From: Pseudanabaena sp. lw0831 | Lineage (GTDB): Bacteria; Cyanobacteriota; Cyanobacteriia; Pseudanabaenales; Pseudanabaenaceae | Reading direction: 5' to 3' | DNA length: 63,262 nt | Assembly: GCF_016584665.1 (NCBI RefSeq) | Contig: NZ_BBJB01000029.1 | Location: 1-63,262 of the forward strand | In this document: one piece after another, positions 9,192 through 21,197 of the stretch | Numbering within the stretch: the first letter of the stretch is position 1 | Layout: each line of letters starts with the position of its first letter | Program-made: the position numbers and the translations under genes | Notes under the pieces: generated by a model | Database searches by the model: none | What the model was told of the DNA's origin: nothing | What the model saw: the letters and a program-made list of their open reading frames with translations, nothing else

Positions 9192-10862
9192 ATGACCCAG
9201 ACACTCACCCCAATCCAAGGCGCAGGCGCTATGGGAGCCGAACCCCAAAAGACTCTCTGGTGGGAATTTTTTACCTTTAGCGTCGATCATAAAATCATCG
9301 GGATTCAGTATCTCGTTACTTCGTTTGTATTTTATTTAGTAGGCGGACTGCTTGCCTCAATCGTTCGTGCTGAGCTAGCAACCCCAGACTCTGATTTAGT
9401 CGATCCCGCTTTTTACAACAGTCTCTTCACCATGCATGGCACGGTCATGATCTTTTTATGGATCGTACCTGCGGTGACGGGAGGCTTTGGCAACTACTTG
9501 ATTCCCCTAATGATTGGGGCGCGAGACATGGCATTTCCGCGTTTAAATGCGATCGCCTTTTGGTTGACGATTCCTGCGGGGATGCTCTTGATGAGCAGCT
9601 TCTTCTTTGGTCCCGCCTCAACTGGCTGGACGGCTTATCCGCCTCTAAGCATTTTGACAAATGAGCATGTTGGTCAAGTGATTTGGATTGGCAGCATTCT
9701 TTTAGTAGGAACCTCATCGATCTTGGCGGCAGTAAATTTTATTGTGACGATCTGGTCGATGCGGATGCCAGAGATGGATCTGTTCAGTATGCCCCTGTTC
9801 TGCTGGGCAATGATGGCAACTTCAGTACTTGCTCTACTCGCAACGCCTGTATTAGCTGGTGCAATGGTGTTACTGGGCTTTGACTTACTAATTGGCACAA
9901 ACTTTTTTAACCCCACTGGTGGCGGCGATCCAGTCGTGTATCAACACTTATTCTGGTTCTATTCACATCCCGCCGTATATGTGATGGTTTTGCCCGTATT
10001 TGGCATCATCTCTGAAGTTTTACCTCCCCATAGCCGCAAGCCGATTTTTGGGTATAAGGCGATCGCCTATTCCAGCATGATGATTTGCTTTTTGGGTTTG
10101 TTTGTCTGGGCGCACCATATGTTTACAAGTGGCACACCAGATTGGTTGCGCGTATTCTTTATGGTGGTGACATTGCTCGTGTCAGTACCGACGGGGATCA
10201 AGGTATTTAGTTGGGTAGCTACGCTTTGGGGTGGCAAGTTGCGCTTAGATAGTCCTTTGCTGTTTGCGATGGGCTTTATTTCCACCTTTTTGATTGGCGG
10301 TTTAAGTGGAGTGATGCTTGGTTCGACCCCAATCGATATCCATGTTCACGACACTTATTTTGTCGTGGCTCACTTCCACTATGTGTTGTTTGGAGGCAGT
10401 GTATTTGGTATTTACGCGGGGTTATATCATTGGTTCCCCAAAATGACTGGTCGCATGTTGAATGAGTTTTGGGGCAAGGTTCACTTTGTCTTGACATTCA
10501 TTGGAATGCATTTAACCTTTGGCCCCATGCATATTCTTGGTTTGCAAGGAATGCCGCGCCGCGTCGCCCAGTACGATCCTCAATTTGCACCGATTAATGT
10601 GATCTGCACGATTGGAGCATTTATTCTAGCGATTTCCACAGTTCCTTTTGTAATAAACGCCGTTTACAGCTGGTTTAAGGGCGAACAAGCTCCTGATAAT
10701 CCTTGGGATGCTCTGACTATGGAATGGACAACTTCTTCGCCCCCAATTCCCCATAACTGGGTTGGTGAACCTGTCTTATTAACTGGTCCCTATGACTACG
10801 GCGAAGAATATAAAGAAGCTCGCAAAGAAGCCGCGATCGCAGCTTCACAAGCTCTAACTTAA
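9192..10862 (+). CDS. ctaD: Cytochrome c oxidase subunit I
   Basis: A 556-residue heme-copper oxidase subunit I with twelve expected membrane helices. It binds heme a and the heme a3/CuB centre where oxygen is reduced. Visible signatures are TMHGTVMIFLW (heme a ligand His), the CuB region HLFWFYSHPAVYVMVLP with the His-Tyr neighbourhood, WAHHMFTSG (two CuB His), and DTYFVVAHFHYVLFGG (heme ligands). Length and order are normal. It is the middle gene of the oxidase operon, with about 180 nt before ctaE, part of it an inverted repeat. Confidence 0.97.
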   Translation: MTQTLTPIQGAGAMGAEPQKTLWWEFFTFSVDHKIIGIQYLVTSFVFYLVGGLLASIVRAELATPDSDLVDPAFYNSLFTMHGTVMIFLWIVPAVTGGFGNYLIPLMIGARDMAFPRLNAIAFWLTIPAGMLLMSSFFFGPASTGWTAYPPLSILTNEHVGQVIWIGSILLVGTSSILAAVNFIVTIWSMRMPEMDLFSMPLFCWAMMATSVLALLATPVLAGAMVLLGFDLLIGTNFFNPTGGGDPVVYQHLFWFYSHPAVYVMVLPVFGIISEVLPPHSRKPIFGYKAIAYSSMMICFLGLFVWAHHMFTSGTPDWLRVFFMVVTLLVSVPTGIKVFSWVATLWGGKLRLDSPLLFAMGFISTFLIGGLSGVMLGSTPIDIHVHDTYFVVAHFHYVLFGGSVFGIYAGLYHWFPKMTGRMLNEFWGKVHFVLTFIGMHLTFGPMHILGLQGMPRRVAQYDPQFAPINVICTIGAFILAISTVPFVINAVYSWFKGEQAPDNPWDALTMEWTTSSPPIPHNWVGEPVLLTGPYDYGEEYKEARKEAAIAASQALT

Positions 10863-10905
10863 GAAACCATTTAAGAATTGTTTTCTGTGGTCAAAAGCTG
10901 TAAGA

Positions 10906-10979
10906 GATCCCCCTCAATCCCCCTTAAAAAGGGGAAAGAATTTAATTCTCCCCCCTTTTTAAGGGGGGCTGGGGGGATC
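10906..10979. repeat. C/G-run inverted repeat between ctaD and ctaE
   Basis: GATCCCCCTCAATCCCCCTT at the left and its near-complement ending in GGGGGGATC at the right flank a short A/T centre. This is the widespread cyanobacterial palindrome of polyC/polyG arms. It lies inside the operon and could form a strong RNA stem. Confidence 0.7.
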
Positions 10980-11041
10980 GAGAAAGTTTCTAAGCCCAAC
11001 AACCCTTGTCTGTATTTATCCATTTATCCAAACATTTACCT

Positions 11042-11668
11042 ATGCAAGGATCGATCGCTCCAGTTACTGACCCGACGCAAGATGATGCAATCCATGCTCA
11101 TGCCGCCGACGCAGGGCATTACGAACACCCAGATTTACGGGTTTTTGGTTTAATTGTCTTCCTTATTTCCGAAGGAATGTTATTTTTCGGTTTATTCGCT
11201 GCCTATCTAACCTTTCGCTCCGTCGCCCCCTCTTGGCCCCCAGAAGGTACGCCTGAACTCGAATTACTCCTACCAGGCATTAACACAATTATTCTGGTAT
11301 CTAGTAGCTTCGTGATTCACCAAGCCGATCATGCGATCAAAGAGAATAAGGTCAAGGCGGCTCAGCTATGGTTTCTTGCCACTTTTATCATGGGTGCGAT
11401 ATTCATTGCTGGACAAATTTATGAATACCAACATCTAGAGTTTGGTCTGACCACGAATCTATTTGCTAGTACTTTTTATGTGTTAACAGGCTTTCATGGT
11501 TTGCACGTAATTATTGGCTTATCGTTGATTGCAACGGTGTTAGTGCGATCGCTCAAAGCTGGACATTACAGCAATACCAGCCACTTTGGCATTGAAGCTG
11601 CATCTGTATATTGGCACTTCGTCGATATTGTCTGGATTGTCTTATTTTTACTGCTCTATATTCTTTAG
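11042..11668 (+). CDS. ctaE: Cytochrome c oxidase subunit III
   Basis: The frame opens at 11006, but the ATG at 11042 (MQGSIAPVTDP) gives the usual 208-residue subunit III; upstream codons look like spacer. Five membrane helices are visible (FGLIVFLISEGMLFFGLFAA, NTIILVSSSFVIHQADHAI, FIMGAIFIAGQIYEY, YVLTGFHGLHVIIGLSLI, and a last one with YWHFVDIVWIVLFLLLYIL). Subunit III stabilises the oxidase core and carries no metal. It is the last gene of the ctaC-ctaD-ctaE operon, followed by a long hairpin. Confidence 0.95.
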   Translation: MQGSIAPVTDPTQDDAIHAHAADAGHYEHPDLRVFGLIVFLISEGMLFFGLFAAYLTFRSVAPSWPPEGTPELELLLPGINTIILVSSSFVIHQADHAIKENKVKAAQLWFLATFIMGAIFIAGQIYEYQHLEFGLTTNLFASTFYVLTGFHGLHVIIGLSLIATVLVRSLKAGHYSNTSHFGIEAASVYWHFVDIVWIVLFLLLYIL

Positions 11669-15858: not shown

Positions 15859-16929
15859 ATGGCTACAATTCCTTCACGTTCAGATATTGAAGCTCTTTCT
15901 CATGATTTGCATAAACTGGTTGACAATCTTGAATCAACCGAGCATGGAGAGCTGATTTACAATGCATTAATGGCGATCGCCCAACTCAGTCAGACCGACG
16001 CAGAGCGCTTAGACTGGAAAATCTTAGCGGGTTCTTTGCGAGATATGCGCCAAGCGATCGCCATGTTTTATCCCTATCGCTTTAATCGTAAAGTGAGTAT
16101 CTTTGGCTCAGCGCGTACTGACGCGAATGCGCCTGAATATCGTCAAGCCTTTGAATTTTCCGAAAAAATCACCAAACAAGGATTCATGGTGATTACTGGT
16201 GCTGGGGGAGGCATCATGGCGGCAGGAAATGAAGGCGCAGGTAATAATTCTTTTGGTTTAAATATCAGTCTGCCCTTTGAGCAATCGAGTAATGGATTTG
16301 TCTCTGAGGCTTCGCGTTTAGTTAGGTTTCGATATTTCTTTACGCGCAAACTTTATTTTATTAAGGAGAGTGATGCGATCGCGCTTTTTCCTGGAGGCTT
16401 CGGCACGCAGGATGAGTTTTTTGAATGCTTAACGCTCTGTCAGACAGGAAGAACAACCCCTCGCCCGATCGTCTTAATCGATAAGCTGGGTGGAGATTAT
16501 TGGAATGACTGGGATGTATTTGTACAGAATAATTTGCTAGAAAGAGGCTTGATTACTAAAGAAGACCGCAGTCTATACAAAATTACCGATGATATTGATG
16601 AAGCTTGCCAATTTATTGCTTCTTTTTATAGTGTTTATCACTCTTGTCGATGGGTTGGTGATTTATTTTTAATTCGTTTGCACATAGAAATTACTGACGA
16701 GCATCTTGAGCGCTTAAATAATAATTTCAGCGATATTTTAATCAGTGGCAAAATCGAACGCAGTTCTGCTCTGCCCAAAGAAGCCAATGAGCCACATATT
16801 CTGGATTTACCTCGGCTAGCTATGCATTTTAATCAACATAGTTTTGGTCGCTTGTATGAGTTAATTTCGGCTATTAATGACACTTGTGATAGCAGTAATC
16901 CCCTAGTTTGTCATCCTGAACAACGCTAA
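15859..16929 (+). CDS. LOG-family (TIGR00730-like) Rossmann protein
   Basis: A 356-residue member of the LOG/lysine-decarboxylase-like family. The signature FPGGFGTQDEFFE (PGGxGTxxE) and the nucleotide-binding GAGGGIMAAGNEGA are complete. Proven relatives hydrolyse nucleoside 5'-monophosphates to free the base, as in cytokinin activation. The protein is longer than the ~200-residue core, with an N-terminal helical part (residues 1-75) and a C-terminal extension. This longer type is usual in cyanobacteria. The substrate here is unknown. A strong hairpin follows at 16933. Confidence 0.88.
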   Translation: MATIPSRSDIEALSHDLHKLVDNLESTEHGELIYNALMAIAQLSQTDAERLDWKILAGSLRDMRQAIAMFYPYRFNRKVSIFGSARTDANAPEYRQAFEFSEKITKQGFMVITGAGGGIMAAGNEGAGNNSFGLNISLPFEQSSNGFVSEASRLVRFRYFFTRKLYFIKESDAIALFPGGFGTQDEFFECLTLCQTGRTTPRPIVLIDKLGGDYWNDWDVFVQNNLLERGLITKEDRSLYKITDDIDEACQFIASFYSVYHSCRWVGDLFLIRLHIEITDEHLERLNNNFSDILISGKIERSSALPKEANEPHILDLPRLAMHFNQHSFGRLYELISAINDTCDSSNPLVCHPEQR

Positions 16930-16932
16930 CTA

Positions 16933-16963
16933 TTAAAAAAGCTAGCTTTGCTAGCTTTTTTAA
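16933..16963 (+). terminator. Terminator between the LOG-family gene and the CCA enzyme gene
   Basis: 14-bp perfect stem (TTAAAAAAGCTAGC) around TTT, 3 nt after the LOG stop and ending in T6AA. Confidence 0.75.
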
Positions 16964-16971
16964 CGAAAAAA

Positions 16972-18285
16972 ATGTATTTAAAAAATTTTGATCGCTTCTT
17001 TAGTCCTTTGCAATGGCAAATTATTTTAACGACAGCGCAGATTGCCCATGATTTAAATGTAAGGGCTTTTGCTGTGGGTGGTATTGTTCGCGATGCCATA
17101 GTTAGAGAAAAACAGCCATCGCCACCTTTACATAACGATCTAGACTTAGTTTTCGACGGAGGAGAACAGGCTGGGATGAAAGTAGCGATCGCTTTGCATG
17201 AACTTTTTCCTGCATCAAAATTACAACTCCATGAAAAATTTCAGACAGCAGCATTAATCTGGCAAGATGCGGATCAAGACTTTGAAATGGACATGGCGAC
17301 AGCGCGGCGCGAGATTTATGCCTTTGCTGGGGCAAATCCACAGGTGAGTGCCACGACCCTCGAAGATGATCTGTGGCGGCGCGATTTCACAGTCAATGCT
17401 TTGGCTATAGAACTCGATCCACAATTGGGAATTAAAGGCGAAGTGATCGATCGCTTCAATGGTCTGGCAGATTTAGCCAATAAACAGGTACGCGCCATTC
17501 GTACAGGCAGCTTTGAGGAAGATCCACGTCGGTTGTTTCGAGCAGTGCGTTTTGCGGTGCGTCTAGATTTTGAGATCGCTCCTGAAACTTACTCAGAAAT
17601 CATGGCAATTACTTCAAGCGGAATCCATGATGCGATCGGTGGAGCTAGACTGCGAGCAGAGTTGCTTTATACTCTTGCCGAGCCAAGAGCAGGTGCAATG
17701 TTTGACCTTTTGCAAAAATTAGGCGCATTGCGATGTATTCATCCAGATTTAAAACTACCCGCAGATTTAGCTAATTCGTTTAAGCATCAATGGCGGCGAT
17801 CGCAATATTGGCTAAAGTTACTCAATCGATTAGAAAATAAAACTTATGCGCCATTGCAACTAGGCTTGGAATTGTTGCTATCCTATTTACCTCATCAAGT
17901 AGCAACGCAAATCGATCTGGGGCTAGCACCTGAACAAAAAACAAGGCAAATAAAATTAGCAGATTTACTAATAAATTTGCCAAATTTAGTAAGTATTAGC
18001 TTAAAGAATTCAGAGATCACCCAAAATCTGCAAAAATTTGATACTCAGACTTTAATATTGGCTGGAGCAAAATGTGAACCTGCTCAACGACGCATCCTTT
18101 GGAGTTATCTAACCCAATGGCAAATTGTCAAATCACCATTAACAGGTGCAGACCTCAAGCAAGTTGGCTATGCTACAGGTAAACAAATGGGCGAAATATT
18201 ACAACGATTAAGATTTGCCACGATTGATCGTGAAATTCAAACTAAAGAAGAGGCGATCGCTTATCTAAGTACTTGTGCCAAATAA
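16972..18285 (+). CDS. CCA tRNA nucleotidyltransferase / poly(A) polymerase-type enzyme
   Basis: A 437-residue class II nucleotidyltransferase that adds or repairs the CCA end of tRNAs (some cyanobacterial members add only part of it). I start at the ATG 16972; the alternative at 16948 lies inside the terminator hairpin. Motifs are AVGGIVRDAI, the DLDLVFDGG metal site, RRDFTVNALAIEL and EDPRRLFRAVRFAVRLDF. A helical C-terminal domain follows residue 230. The tRNA gene at 23436-23508 has no encoded CCA, consistent with a need for such an enzyme. A 49-nt palindrome follows. Confidence 0.93.
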   Translation: MYLKNFDRFFSPLQWQIILTTAQIAHDLNVRAFAVGGIVRDAIVREKQPSPPLHNDLDLVFDGGEQAGMKVAIALHELFPASKLQLHEKFQTAALIWQDADQDFEMDMATARREIYAFAGANPQVSATTLEDDLWRRDFTVNALAIELDPQLGIKGEVIDRFNGLADLANKQVRAIRTGSFEEDPRRLFRAVRFAVRLDFEIAPETYSEIMAITSSGIHDAIGGARLRAELLYTLAEPRAGAMFDLLQKLGALRCIHPDLKLPADLANSFKHQWRRSQYWLKLLNRLENKTYAPLQLGLELLLSYLPHQVATQIDLGLAPEQKTRQIKLADLLINLPNLVSISLKNSEITQNLQKFDTQTLILAGAKCEPAQRRILWSYLTQWQIVKSPLTGADLKQVGYATGKQMGEILQRLRFATIDREIQTKEEAIAYLSTCAK

Positions 18286-18290
18286 ATTAC

Positions 18291-18339
18291 CCAAACCCGT
18301 AAAGTTGCGCCCCTGCGGGGCGCAACTTTACGGGTTTGG
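18291..18339. repeat. 49-nt palindrome, family with variable middle stem (copy 2)
   Basis: Structure: CCAAACCC, GTAAAG, TTGCGCCCC-TGC-GGGGCGCAA, CTTTAC, GGGTTTGG, a perfect 23-bp stem with a TGC loop. Compared with copy 1 at 13925-13973, four of the six middle base pairs differ and all four keep pairing. It follows the CCA-enzyme gene and may act as its terminator. Confidence 0.8.
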
Positions 18340-18409: not shown

Positions 18410-19678
18410 ATGAGAGGCGGTATCCGCATCGGCAGCATTTCTGGCATTCCCCTATACATTGATTCATCATGGTTTCTCGTCATCGGCTTTCTTGCCGTTT
18501 GGCTGAGTGCTGCCTATACCAAGTTATCGCCATCTTTTTCTTTAGGCTATGGGGCAATCAACGCTATCCTGTTCTTTTTTTCGATCGCTTTCAATAAAAT
18601 TGCCCATGCCATCATGTCCAAGGCACGCGGTGTTGAAGTTAACGCAATTAATATTCAGTTTATGGGTGGGGCAAGTACGGTTGAGCAGGAAGCTAAAGAT
18701 CCTTTCTCTGTATTTAGTATTGCCATTTCAGGTCCCTTAGTGAGCTTAGTTTTGAGCGCGATCGGGTTTACTGCGGCTTGGCTAATTGCGGGGGATGTGA
18801 TTTTTTCTGGCAATCCAAAAACTATTGAGGCATTACCCGAAAGTATTGGGAGTATGCGCACCATTTGGACAATGATTGCGCTGAATATTGCCCGAATCAA
18901 TCTCATATTTGGGGTGTTTAGCCTCATCCCTGCGCTACCCTTTGAAGGCGGTCATATTCTCAAAGCAGCGGTTTGGAAACTGACAGGCGATCGCTTTACT
19001 GGTATCCGATGGGCAGCGAGATCGGGCCAGTTTTGCGGGATTTTGACGATGATTTTGGGAGGATTGGTAACTCTCAGCAGTCCTATTGGCGGCATTTTTC
19101 TAATTTTTATCGGATGGTTCCTATTTGGTAATGCAGGTGGCTATCTCTATCTCAACAATTTGCAACAAGCTCTACTTGATATTAATGCCGAAGCCGCGAT
19201 GACAAGAGATTTTCGTCTAGTTGATGCCGAGATCTCATTGCGTGAATTTGCTGATAAATTTTTATTGATGGAAGAGAAAGACTCAAATCCCATTTATATT
19301 GCTTCCTCAAATGGGCGCGATCGCGGCATCATTTCGGCTGGAGCGATCCGTAATATTGACAGTAGCGAATGGCAATCAAAATCTTTGCAATCTCTAATTA
19401 AACCCTTTGATGAAATTGATACTGTCGATCTCAAAACGCAAATTTCAACTGTTGTGAATCTCCTCGAACAAAAACAATTACGTTATGTCATCGTGCGATC
19501 TCCCGTTGGCTCGGTAGCTGGAGTCATAGATCATGGAGATATCATCAAGGCTTTAGATGTCAAACTTCTTTGGCGCATTCCTTCTGAATATGTCAAGCAG
19601 ATTAAAGCTGACGGGAAATTTCCTGCAAACTTCCGTTTAGTAGAAATTTGTGAACAGTTAAAGGCATCCAAACAATAA
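18410..19678 (+). CDS. Site-2-protease-like membrane protein with CBS domains, catalytic motifs lost
   Basis: A 422-residue protein with the layout of cyanobacterial M50 site-2 proteases. It has a start like GIRIGSISGIPLYIDSSWF, membrane helices, a PDZ-less core, the SLIPALPFEGGHILKAAVWK region, and a C-terminal CBS pair (about residues 260-400). The zinc motif HExxH is replaced by NKIAH (FNKIAHAIMSKARGVEV), and the second-site Asp of LPLDGG is Glu (LPFEGG). Two zinc ligands or the catalytic Glu are therefore missing, and it is probably not a protease. The frame is otherwise intact, so a sensing or scaffolding role through CBS ligand binding is possible but unproven. Confidence 0.82.
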   Translation: MRGGIRIGSISGIPLYIDSSWFLVIGFLAVWLSAAYTKLSPSFSLGYGAINAILFFFSIAFNKIAHAIMSKARGVEVNAINIQFMGGASTVEQEAKDPFSVFSIAISGPLVSLVLSAIGFTAAWLIAGDVIFSGNPKTIEALPESIGSMRTIWTMIALNIARINLIFGVFSLIPALPFEGGHILKAAVWKLTGDRFTGIRWAARSGQFCGILTMILGGLVTLSSPIGGIFLIFIGWFLFGNAGGYLYLNNLQQALLDINAEAAMTRDFRLVDAEISLREFADKFLLMEEKDSNPIYIASSNGRDRGIISAGAIRNIDSSEWQSKSLQSLIKPFDEIDTVDLKTQISTVVNLLEQKQLRYVIVRSPVGSVAGVIDHGDIIKALDVKLLWRIPSEYVKQIKADGKFPANFRLVEICEQLKASKQ

Positions 19679-19681
19679 GAT

Positions 19682-19722
19682 CAAAAACTGGGTCTAGGTC
19701 TTCGCCCCAGACCCAGTTTTTG
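19682..19722. terminator. Bidirectional terminator between convergent genes
   Basis: 14-bp perfect stem (CAAAAACTGGGTCT) with a 13-nt loop, just after the site-2-protease-like gene and before the 3' end of the minus-strand gene at 19728. Confidence 0.65.
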
Positions 19723-19727
19723 GGCTT

Positions 19728-21197
19728 TTAAAAGCCAACAGAATTTAAGTCTTCTGCAAAGTCTTCCAATGTGACAAAATTAGATGAAGATTTTGAATCT
19801 AAGCCACTGAGAGTAATGGTTTCCATGTTTCCTAATATCCGCTCTATGGTTGTTGCGCCAAGATCTGGTTTTACTTGAACTGTATCTTTATCAATATCTT
19901 TTTTGTTGTTAATAGTTTCTGATTTCGCTTTAATCTGCTCTTCCTCATCCATTATCTGCAAAAATTTATCCAGATTCTGCTTGGGAATTCTTAATTTAAT
20001 TGCCTCTATATCATCTTCTAAATCATCTATATCAGAGTTGTCATTTGACGAGAAATTACCAAACAAATCATCATCTACATTTGTTGGCTTTGTCTCCTCA
20101 TTTACTTGCTGAATAGATAAATCCTCACTTTCACGATAACTATTCGCTGAATCTACATTCATAAAGTCATCAAATAGTGAATCCGAAAAATCAGAATTTT
20201 CAGTTATATCATTAACTATTTGAACTGATTGAGCACTTGGTAATGGCGGTTCTGGAAAATCGTCAAATAATGAATTTACAGTAAGCATTTGCGAATTAGA
20301 TTCTGAGCCTAGATTAGCTATCACATCTTCAGAATTATCTTGCTCAATTTCTGGACTAGCATTGTCTAGCTCTATATCAGGTTCATCAGCTATAGACTCA
20401 GGGGTGCTTTCTGTCAAGTCCAAAGTAAGCCCTTGATGCGTGACTTCTGGCTCATTCTGATCTTGGCTAAGATCCGCAGGTTCTAAAAATATCTTAGTAA
20501 CTAGACGGATTTTGGCTTTTTGCCATTGTTGGCCTGGCTGCAATATTGATAGGTTAGTAATTACTTGATCGCCGTGCTGATCGGTTTTACTCGATTCAGC
20601 GATCGTATCGAGCAAACTTCGCAAATTCGGATTAGATGCAACGGACGCAAATAAGAAGCTAGGCTGACTAATTACCTGAATTAATTCTGTAAGTGTAGTT
20701 AAGCATCGCACAGTACCAACATGTTCATCGGTGAAACGAACAATGATGTCTTGATACTCTTGCAAGTTTTGCTGGATTTGAGACAACTTCTGCACGAGTA
20801 TGACTCCTTTGGGATTGCTTACAAGATTCATATTTTGACCTTGCTCGACATTAGTATCCTTGATAATCGTTGGAGTTGCCACGGACTGCTTAAGATCGTC
20901 GTTGTTGCCAAGATCGATTTCATCCTGCCAAGCTAGATAATGATTATCAGAGCGATAGGTCAGAATTTTGACACGCTTGATCTGACTGACCTGTAAAACG
21001 ATCATGCCTCTATGAATAATTGTCACAACCGCTTTTTGGTTGGGGATCTGGGAAGCTTGTAAGGATATTCTCAGACATTCTGCTTCAAGTTCAGCCTCGG
21101 CATGGATGCCTTTAGATGCTAGAGATCGATTTATCAAAGATGCGATCGCATTGGGATCACCTTGCTTTGCCAAGTCCATAACGCTTAGTTGTGCCAT
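19728..21197 (-). CDS. Acidic cytoplasmic protein with the shared KQGDPNAIA-type N-terminal domain
   Basis: A 489-residue soluble protein of unknown function. Residues 8-99 form a domain that starts LAKQGDPNAIASLINRSL and ends near LAWQDEIDL. The same domain opens the proteins at 46233-47153 and 50085-52760. Residues about 125-235 look like a second folded part (helical, with FTDEHVGTVRCLTTLTELI). The rest is long, very acidic and probably disordered, with repeated DDF/LFDDF motifs (SLFDDFPEPP, SLFDDFMNV, DDLFGNF). These recurring acidic-aromatic motifs could be docking sites. No membrane segment or catalytic motif is seen. The gene stands alone with convergent S2P-like and upstream CP12 genes. 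Confidence 0.75.
   Translation of the reverse strand: MAQLSVMDLAKQGDPNAIASLINRSLASKGIHAEAELEAECLRISLQASQIPNQKAVVTIIHRGMIVLQVSQIKRVKILTYRSDNHYLAWQDEIDLGNNDDLKQSVATPTIIKDTNVEQGQNMNLVSNPKGVILVQKLSQIQQNLQEYQDIIVRFTDEHVGTVRCLTTLTELIQVISQPSFLFASVASNPNLRSLLDTIAESSKTDQHGDQVITNLSILQPGQQWQKAKIRLVTKIFLEPADLSQDQNEPEVTHQGLTLDLTESTPESIADEPDIELDNASPEIEQDNSEDVIANLGSESNSQMLTVNSLFDDFPEPPLPSAQSVQIVNDITENSDFSDSLFDDFMNVDSANSYRESEDLSIQQVNEETKPTNVDDDLFGNFSSNDNSDIDDLEDDIEAIKLRIPKQNLDKFLQIMDEEEQIKAKSETINNKKDIDKDTVQVKPDLGATTIERILGNMETITLSGLDSKSSSNFVTLEDFAEDLNSVGF

Follow-up and report, generated by a model that had tools for sequence, protein, structure and literature searches.

Conserved loss of the catalytic motifs in a site-2 protease relative with a CBS region from the cyanobacterial genus Pseudanabaena

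The S2P-CBS gene and its altered motifs

The window, by which we mean the whole 63,262-nucleotide stretch of Pseudanabaena sp. lw0831 DNA that was analysed, carries at 18410-19678 on the forward strand an intact open reading frame that begins with ATG and encodes 422 amino acids followed by a stop codon. Pfam assigns residues 52-194 of this protein to Peptidase_M50 (PF02163; E 4.6e-10, 39.7 bits against a cut-off of 27.2) and residues 336-382 to CBS (E 4.9e-05, exactly on the 24-bit cut-off). With phmmer, residues 4-239 align with the archaeal site-2 protease (S2P) 3b4r (MJ0392; E 1.1e-9). In this alignment N62, K63 and H66 lie opposite H, E and H of HELGH, so that N62-K63-I64-A65-H66 is its counterpart, and F178-E179-G-G lies opposite MDGG, with E179 facing D. 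Thus NKIAH (residues 62-66; 18593-18607, forward strand) stands in place of the zinc-binding and catalytic HExxH, as comparison with congeners also indicates. LPFEGG (residues 176-181; 18935-18952, forward strand), read directly in the sequence, replaces LPLDGG, leaving E179 in the window protein at the position of the third-ligand Asp of the (N)PxxPLDGG motif. An earlier sequence-only reading had described the frame as an M50 protein with CBS domains carrying these two changes, and its coordinates and residues were right. Its description of the CBS pair as intact holds in part: CBS 336-382 scores, but it is the one repeat that does so by itself, and a pair depends partly on homology. A further change lay beyond that reading. 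By congener comparison SLIPALPFEGG (residues 171-181; 18920-18952, forward strand) replaces NLIPGLPLDGG, so that the Asn of NxxPxxPLDGG has become Ser in addition to the change of Asp to Glu.

The C-terminal CBS region, delimited by the Pfam match and by dN/dS (below), spans residues 256-422 (19175-19675, forward strand). Alignment reveals an extra loop before the second catalytic motif (residues 126-150; 18785-18859, forward strand). The stretch that follows the HExxH helix (residues 77-85; 18638-18664, forward strand), for which we presume a substrate-holding role from S2P structures, is assigned as a strand only by a weak AlphaFold model of the window protein (10 close sequences; mean pLDDT 44.2). 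A repeat search found two terminator-like inverted repeats beside the gene, one with 20-bp arms between the CCA gene and the S2P-CBS gene (18292-18338) and one with 17-bp arms between the S2P-CBS gene and a convergent gene of 489 amino acids (19682-19722). The former suggests that the S2P-CBS gene is transcribed on its own.

Judged by its sequence, the core of the window protein belongs by descent to the M50/S2P family, and support for an S2P fold likewise comes from sequence homology. The CBS region, whole-length alignment and placement in our tree all agree with membership of the cyanobacterial S2P-CBS subfamily. We therefore regard the protein as an S2P-family member by descent but, going by its defining residues, not as an S2P protease.

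Distribution of the motif loss

Our congener set comprised 26 Pseudanabaena genomes including that of the window, 23 of them from a search of 38 genomes and three from a class-wide search. In the 38-genome search the strain itself and 22 other congeners each yielded one orthologue, with identities of 75-96%. In all 26 congeners the orthologue is a single open frame of 417-424 amino acids; that of one genome (G007, locus L020) ends at residue 417, and its search row therefore runs past the C-terminal stop.

HExxH is missing from every one of the 26 proteins, and none of them has an HExxH elsewhere in the S2P-CBS sequence. Position 62 is N in 20, S in four and T in two, while position 63 is basic throughout (K in 25, R in one). 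Position 66 is H in 23 and R in three, position 179 is E in 23, A in two and D in one, and position 171 is Ser in 26/26. A new His182 is present in 22 of the 26, residue 182 taking four forms. The changes proposed to be shared among orthologues are therefore common to the genus as a class of loss, the exact combination of N-K-x-x-H with E179 occurring in 17/26; the other nine have S or T at 62, R at 63 or 66, or A or D at 179. One of these (L017, S-K-V-A-R) has retained or regained Asp at 179. In sum, no congener retains His62 as zinc ligand, Glu63 as general base or Asn171 of the motif, and 25 of the 26 have also replaced the ligand Asp179.

Outside the genus the picture is the reverse. With the picocyanobacteria set apart, all four residues (H, E, H and D) are kept in 72/72 S2P-CBS copies, namely nine from other genera of the same family, 61 from other families (mostly drawn from the higher-scoring rows of the 38-genome and class-wide searches) and two of Synechocystis type. 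The motif Asn is likewise N in 72/72, against S171 in 26/26 congeners. The nine same-family HExxH copies are 36-48% identical to the window protein over its length, and three further same-family copies also keep the motifs (3/3). Absence of the motif from 26/26 congeners together with retention of all four residues in 72/72 other copies places the loss far beyond chance. The class-wide search gave a match in 287 of 291 genomes, of which a minority of copies were read at the residue level, and rarer HExxH losses may exist elsewhere in the class.

Among the picocyanobacteria (30 copies read, 35 genomes) HExxH is kept in 27/30 and Asp in 30/30. The three remaining copies read YEVLH, HEVFR and RELGN (L115, L123 and L133), which we regard as sporadic, independent erosion at the same site. 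The loop at residues 126-150 was considered as a mark of new function and rejected; it is gapped in most outside copies but is carried by 7/9 of the same-family copies that have HExxH.

Selection and shifted constraint

We estimated dN/dS among the 26 congeners by simple pairwise NG86, using the 131 of 325 pairs with 0<dS<1.5; the other 194 were dropped because dS was at least 1.5, zero or undefined. For the whole gene the median is 0.091 and the maximum 0.158 (131 pairs). Purifying selection with dN/dS well under 1 had been anticipated by the sequence-only reading, for which changes confined to this strain with dN/dS near 1 would have meant simple decay; the changes occur in 26/26 congeners and the median lies far from 1. 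The M50 part has a median of 0.112 and a maximum of 0.226 (131 pairs) and the CBS part a median of 0.067 (129 pairs), a stronger constraint than on the M50 part. On four of ten genome pairs we also compared the gene with its neighbours. S2P-CBS gave 0.054-0.068, LOG 0.048-0.099, COQ2 0.043-0.086 and dnaJ 0.011-0.024; hisC gave 0.062-0.093 on three pairs and, with one copy truncated at the locus end, 0.160 on the fourth. The fastest of the neighbours tested was the convergent 489-amino-acid gene (19728-21197, reverse strand), at 0.143-0.308 over the four pairs. The new residues are conserved despite synonymous variation in their codons (AAA/AAG for K63, AGC/AGT for S171, GAA/GAG for E179). From these sequence comparisons we conclude that the S2P-CBS gene is kept under strong purifying selection.

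Constraint on the two halves of the protein was also examined at positions conserved in HExxH copies. Within the M50 part the genus has fixed a different residue at 19 of 95 such positions, compared with 0-1 in each of six HExxH control clades, which are small (5-9 copies each). Ten of the 19 swaps lie within 8 residues of positions 62, 63, 66, 171 or 179, and four more lie at positions 81-85, where N81, I82, Q83 and M85 are fixed against T, L, F and F. In the CBS part there are 3 fixed swaps in the genus (of 38 positions) and 0-3 in the control clades. The stem branch of the genus clade is long (0.61 changes per column in our tree), which by itself raises swap counts, and the counts alone (19/95 for M50, 3/38 for CBS) do not differ significantly (Fisher p 0.12). 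Retention of the conserved residues does differ, at 57/95 M50 positions versus 33/38 CBS positions (Fisher p 0.004). Binned by identity, HExxH copies show an M50 core whose conservation equals or exceeds that of CBS throughout (with only 9 HExxH pairs at CBS identity of at least 75%), whereas in every bin of the inactive clade the core falls below CBS. On these alignments, constraint in the inactive clade is shifted, with M50 less conserved than CBS and the order seen in HExxH copies reversed.

This reversal, together with the lower dN/dS of the CBS part, is what would be expected if function resided wholly in the CBS module and the old protease core served as a membrane anchor without clients. 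However, a bare anchor would hardly call for many fixed new residues around the old active site, encoded by freely varying codons, nor would it need an M50 dN/dS near 0.11. We consider a mere anchor unlikely, and favour a dead but selectively maintained S2P in which the core still contributes to a regulatory function.

Other M50 proteins of Pseudanabaenaceae

The strain's own genome has four M50 matches above the cut-off, the window gene included, and some weaker ones. In the RseP type both HELGH and LDGG persist in 16/16 Pseudanabaena genomes read, and a longer M50 protein of the strain itself (a 570-amino-acid frame) keeps HEFGH. A further protein, which we call EGY-like purely by resemblance and in which Pfam recognises Peptidase_M50 only, is encoded in the strain's own genome at 85105-86658 of contig C44 (G000; forward strand; 688-2241 of locus L032), with orthologues at L145-L167 and L189-L200. 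In it R-E-x-x-x-R replaces HExxH in 23/23 Pseudanabaena copies of a first set and in 12/12 further same-family copies (3 Pseudanabaena, 9 other genera), so that HExxH is lost in all 35 Pseudanabaenaceae copies read; in other families it is kept in 7/7 and 5/7 copies (12/14). The median dN/dS of the EGY-like gene is 0.075 (144/231 pairs). A third, more diverged M50-like group is without HExxH in 10/10 Pseudanabaenaceae genomes read (L175, from the strain's own genome on G000:C38, and L201, L204-L207, L209, L210, L214 and L234); copies from other families keep it in 8/11, a twelfth region giving no match. Scattered HExxH losses among EGY-like and third-group proteins of other cyanobacterial families were seen at L216, L224, L226, L229 and L232. 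In one same-family locus (L179, G274:C65) a distance of ∼5 kb separates the EGY-like gene (9855-11252) from the S2P-CBS gene (16598-17845). On the copies read, the motif would have been lost early in two M50 groups of Pseudanabaenaceae and later, in Pseudanabaena, from S2P-CBS.

The presence of these relatives raises the question of whether the window protein is a regulatory subunit, in complex either with the active RseP-type S2P, whose HELGH is kept throughout the genomes read, or with the further two M50 proteins, likewise motif-less, that the same genomes retain. Against this, the genes are not neighbours in the one-contig genome G002, where S2P-CBS lies at ∼3.73 Mb, the EGY-like gene at 1.23 Mb, the RseP type at 1.20 Mb and a second weaker match at 0.46 Mb. 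We think such a complex improbable as an explanation of the gene's retention.

Consequences for catalysis

The known S2P mechanism uses a zinc-bound water. With His62, Glu63 and the motif Asn gone, and Asp179 mostly gone, this mechanism should not run, and catalytic zinc binding and cleavage are probably absent from the window protein, as far as its residues can tell. A buried pair of Lys63 and Glu179 may stand in for the metal; this is a guess based on chemistry and on the basic residue found at position 63 in 26/26 congeners. Such a Lys-Glu pair would not be obligatory, position 179 being Ala in two congeners and Asp in one.

The same residues might instead be read as changed chemistry, that is, a hydrolase working with another metal or with none through Lys63, His66, Glu179 or the new His182, and their frequencies give this some colour (K or R63 in 26/26, H66 in 23/26, E179 in 23/26, H182 in 22/26). 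Nevertheless, the substitution of H66 by Arg in three congeners and of E179 by Ala in two and Asp in one, along with three forms of residue 62 and four of residue 182, is too loose for a catalytic set, and we regard a new catalytic activity as very doubtful.

Origin of the motif-less gene

At E<=0.001 we detected no second S2P-CBS gene in any of the 26 congener genomes; a second row in one of them (G017) is a CBS-only match inside a 1055-amino-acid frame. In a quick tree of 109 copies, including 11 of the 30 picocyanobacterial ones, the 26 congeners group together with an SH-aLRT of 100, nested in a family clade (99; next node 93) whose other nine members keep HExxH. The gene order dnaJ-fdx-LOG-(CCA)-S2P-489 aa gene-COQ2 is kept in 4/4 Pseudanabaena loci read, two of which lack CCA. 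The CCA-S2P adjacency recurs in a same-family genome, G107, whose S2P keeps HExxH, while none of the neighbours tested is common to the remaining 8 of the 9 outside loci read. Synteny was accordingly rejected as a guide to a partner gene, the adjacency in G107 being its only recurrence among the nine outside loci.

Nesting within the family, single copy number and a conserved locus together point to one gene in one place that lost its residues on the genus stem. In-place conversion of the S2P-CBS gene along the genus stem is thus the simplest reading of these sequence data. One could suppose instead that a motif-less paralogue or horizontally acquired gene replaced the family's active gene, not being its descendant; the long stem branch and support below 80 for 38 of the 106 inner branches of the tree leave some room for this, but the nested position, the CCA-S2P adjacency in common with G107 and the single copy per genome make replacement highly improbable. 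Decay of a dispensable gene, or sequencing error, is ruled out for practical purposes since, even though the site can erode (3/30 picocyanobacterial copies), the changes are shared by 26/26 congeners with open frames and fixed new residues at a median dN/dS of 0.091.

Proposed function

Loss of the catalytic residues and conservation of the gene under selection are among the marks of a pseudoprotease, and the suggestion that the window protein is a conserved one is supported by genus-wide motif loss with low dN/dS. Our main reading, to which we give a probability of roughly 0.6, is that the window protein is a catalytically dead, selectively maintained S2P that acts as a membrane-anchored CBS regulator. 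A partner-binding role gated by the CBS module would then be the function most probably retained. In such a protein the polytopic core would still dock partners, be they transmembrane or cytosolic; the CBS module would still sense a nucleotide and pass the signal to the partner, giving a scaffold or holdase in place of a protease. The pathway could plausibly be the stress and carbon/nitrogen signalling of the active Synechocystis relative Sll0528.

We also put forward, tentatively and at somewhat less than even odds, a wider reading that joins the three M50 proteins and draws on sequence comparison. S2P-CBS would have had an ancestral non-proteolytic job, as a nucleotide-sensing, partner-binding membrane regulator able to live without the protease, and Pseudanabaenaceae would have lost intramembrane metalloproteolysis stepwise while keeping all three proteins. 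The two other M50 families would have lost HExxH in the family ancestor and S2P-CBS in the ancestor of Pseudanabaena. On this reading they would be the first S2P pseudoproteases from bacteria, and in S2P-CBS a Lys-acid pair would replace the zinc.

A genus with only a motif-less S2P-CBS (26/26 species read) amounts to a natural experiment. The function for which S2P-CBS is kept in Pseudanabaena seemingly has no need for peptide-bond cleavage, so that non-proteolytic S2P functions become a directly testable question. The name "protease" for these Pseudanabaena genes is probably wrong.

Comparison with known systems

The archaeal MjS2P (3b4r), an active zinc protease, has the same core by sequence (residues 4-239 of the window protein) but differs in that its HELGH and MDGG are intact. 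SpoIVFB of Bacillus subtilis combines an S2P core with a CBS domain, as the window protein does. It is catalytically active, however, and its blocking partner is a separate protein. According to PMC9042235, the transmembrane segment of that partner can fill the active-site cleft.

Among cyanobacterial proteins, Sll0528 of Synechocystis shares the M50 core and CBS. In published work, recombinant Sll0528 cleaves beta-casein, an activity blocked by o-phenanthroline, and the protein is needed under salt, cold and osmotic stress (PMC4284730); two-hybrid assays report binding to the regulator RbcR and several other proteins, and the RbcR regulon is lowered in an sll0528 knockout (PMC12014562). We located the Sll0528-type gene in two genomes (L237 and L238) by a published primer, its Synechocystis type being inferred from the primer match; it is 31% identical to the window protein over 389 columns. 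Unlike the window protein, the Sll0528-type copies keep HELGH and LPLDGG, and they sit on another branch of the tree. In these two genomes the published sll0528 start primer matches a site upstream of the M50-CBS frame and in a different reading phase.

The sequence-only reading had likened a conserved pseudoprotease of this kind to eukaryotic iRhoms, with substrates that would be regulated or retained rather than cut. As described, iRhoms and Derlins do resemble the window protein in being an inactive intramembrane protease fold kept for binding clients, although the fold is rhomboid, not S2P, and eukaryotic. iRhoms coexist with active rhomboid relatives. The parallel is thus half right: the conserved pseudoprotease is supported, but our searches of the genus revealed no active copy of the CBS type, which excludes a decoy role towards an active sister of that type.

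EGY3 of Arabidopsis is the closest known case and a nearer parallel than iRhoms. It belongs to the EGY branch of M50 and is not known to carry CBS domains. By its CBS region and its grouping with S2P-CBS copies the window protein falls outside the EGY3 family as that family is generally described. PMC9355673 presents S2P pseudoproteases as a rarity confined to plants, with EGY3 as the only pseudoenzyme of the S2P family. PMC9355673, PMC10978774 and PMC12389704 describe it as stabilising other chloroplast proteins and as stress-related. No bacterial S2P pseudoprotease was apparent from titles and the openings of abstracts, mostly outside subscription journals. EGY3 and the window protein are alike in being S2P relatives without HExxH, conserved over a lineage and set in a photosynthetic membrane system, whereas EGY3 coexists with active EGY1 and EGY2 and Pseudanabaena has a single S2P-CBS gene converted in place. 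The Pseudanabaena case therefore differs from EGY3 in being bacterial, CBS-bearing and unduplicated.
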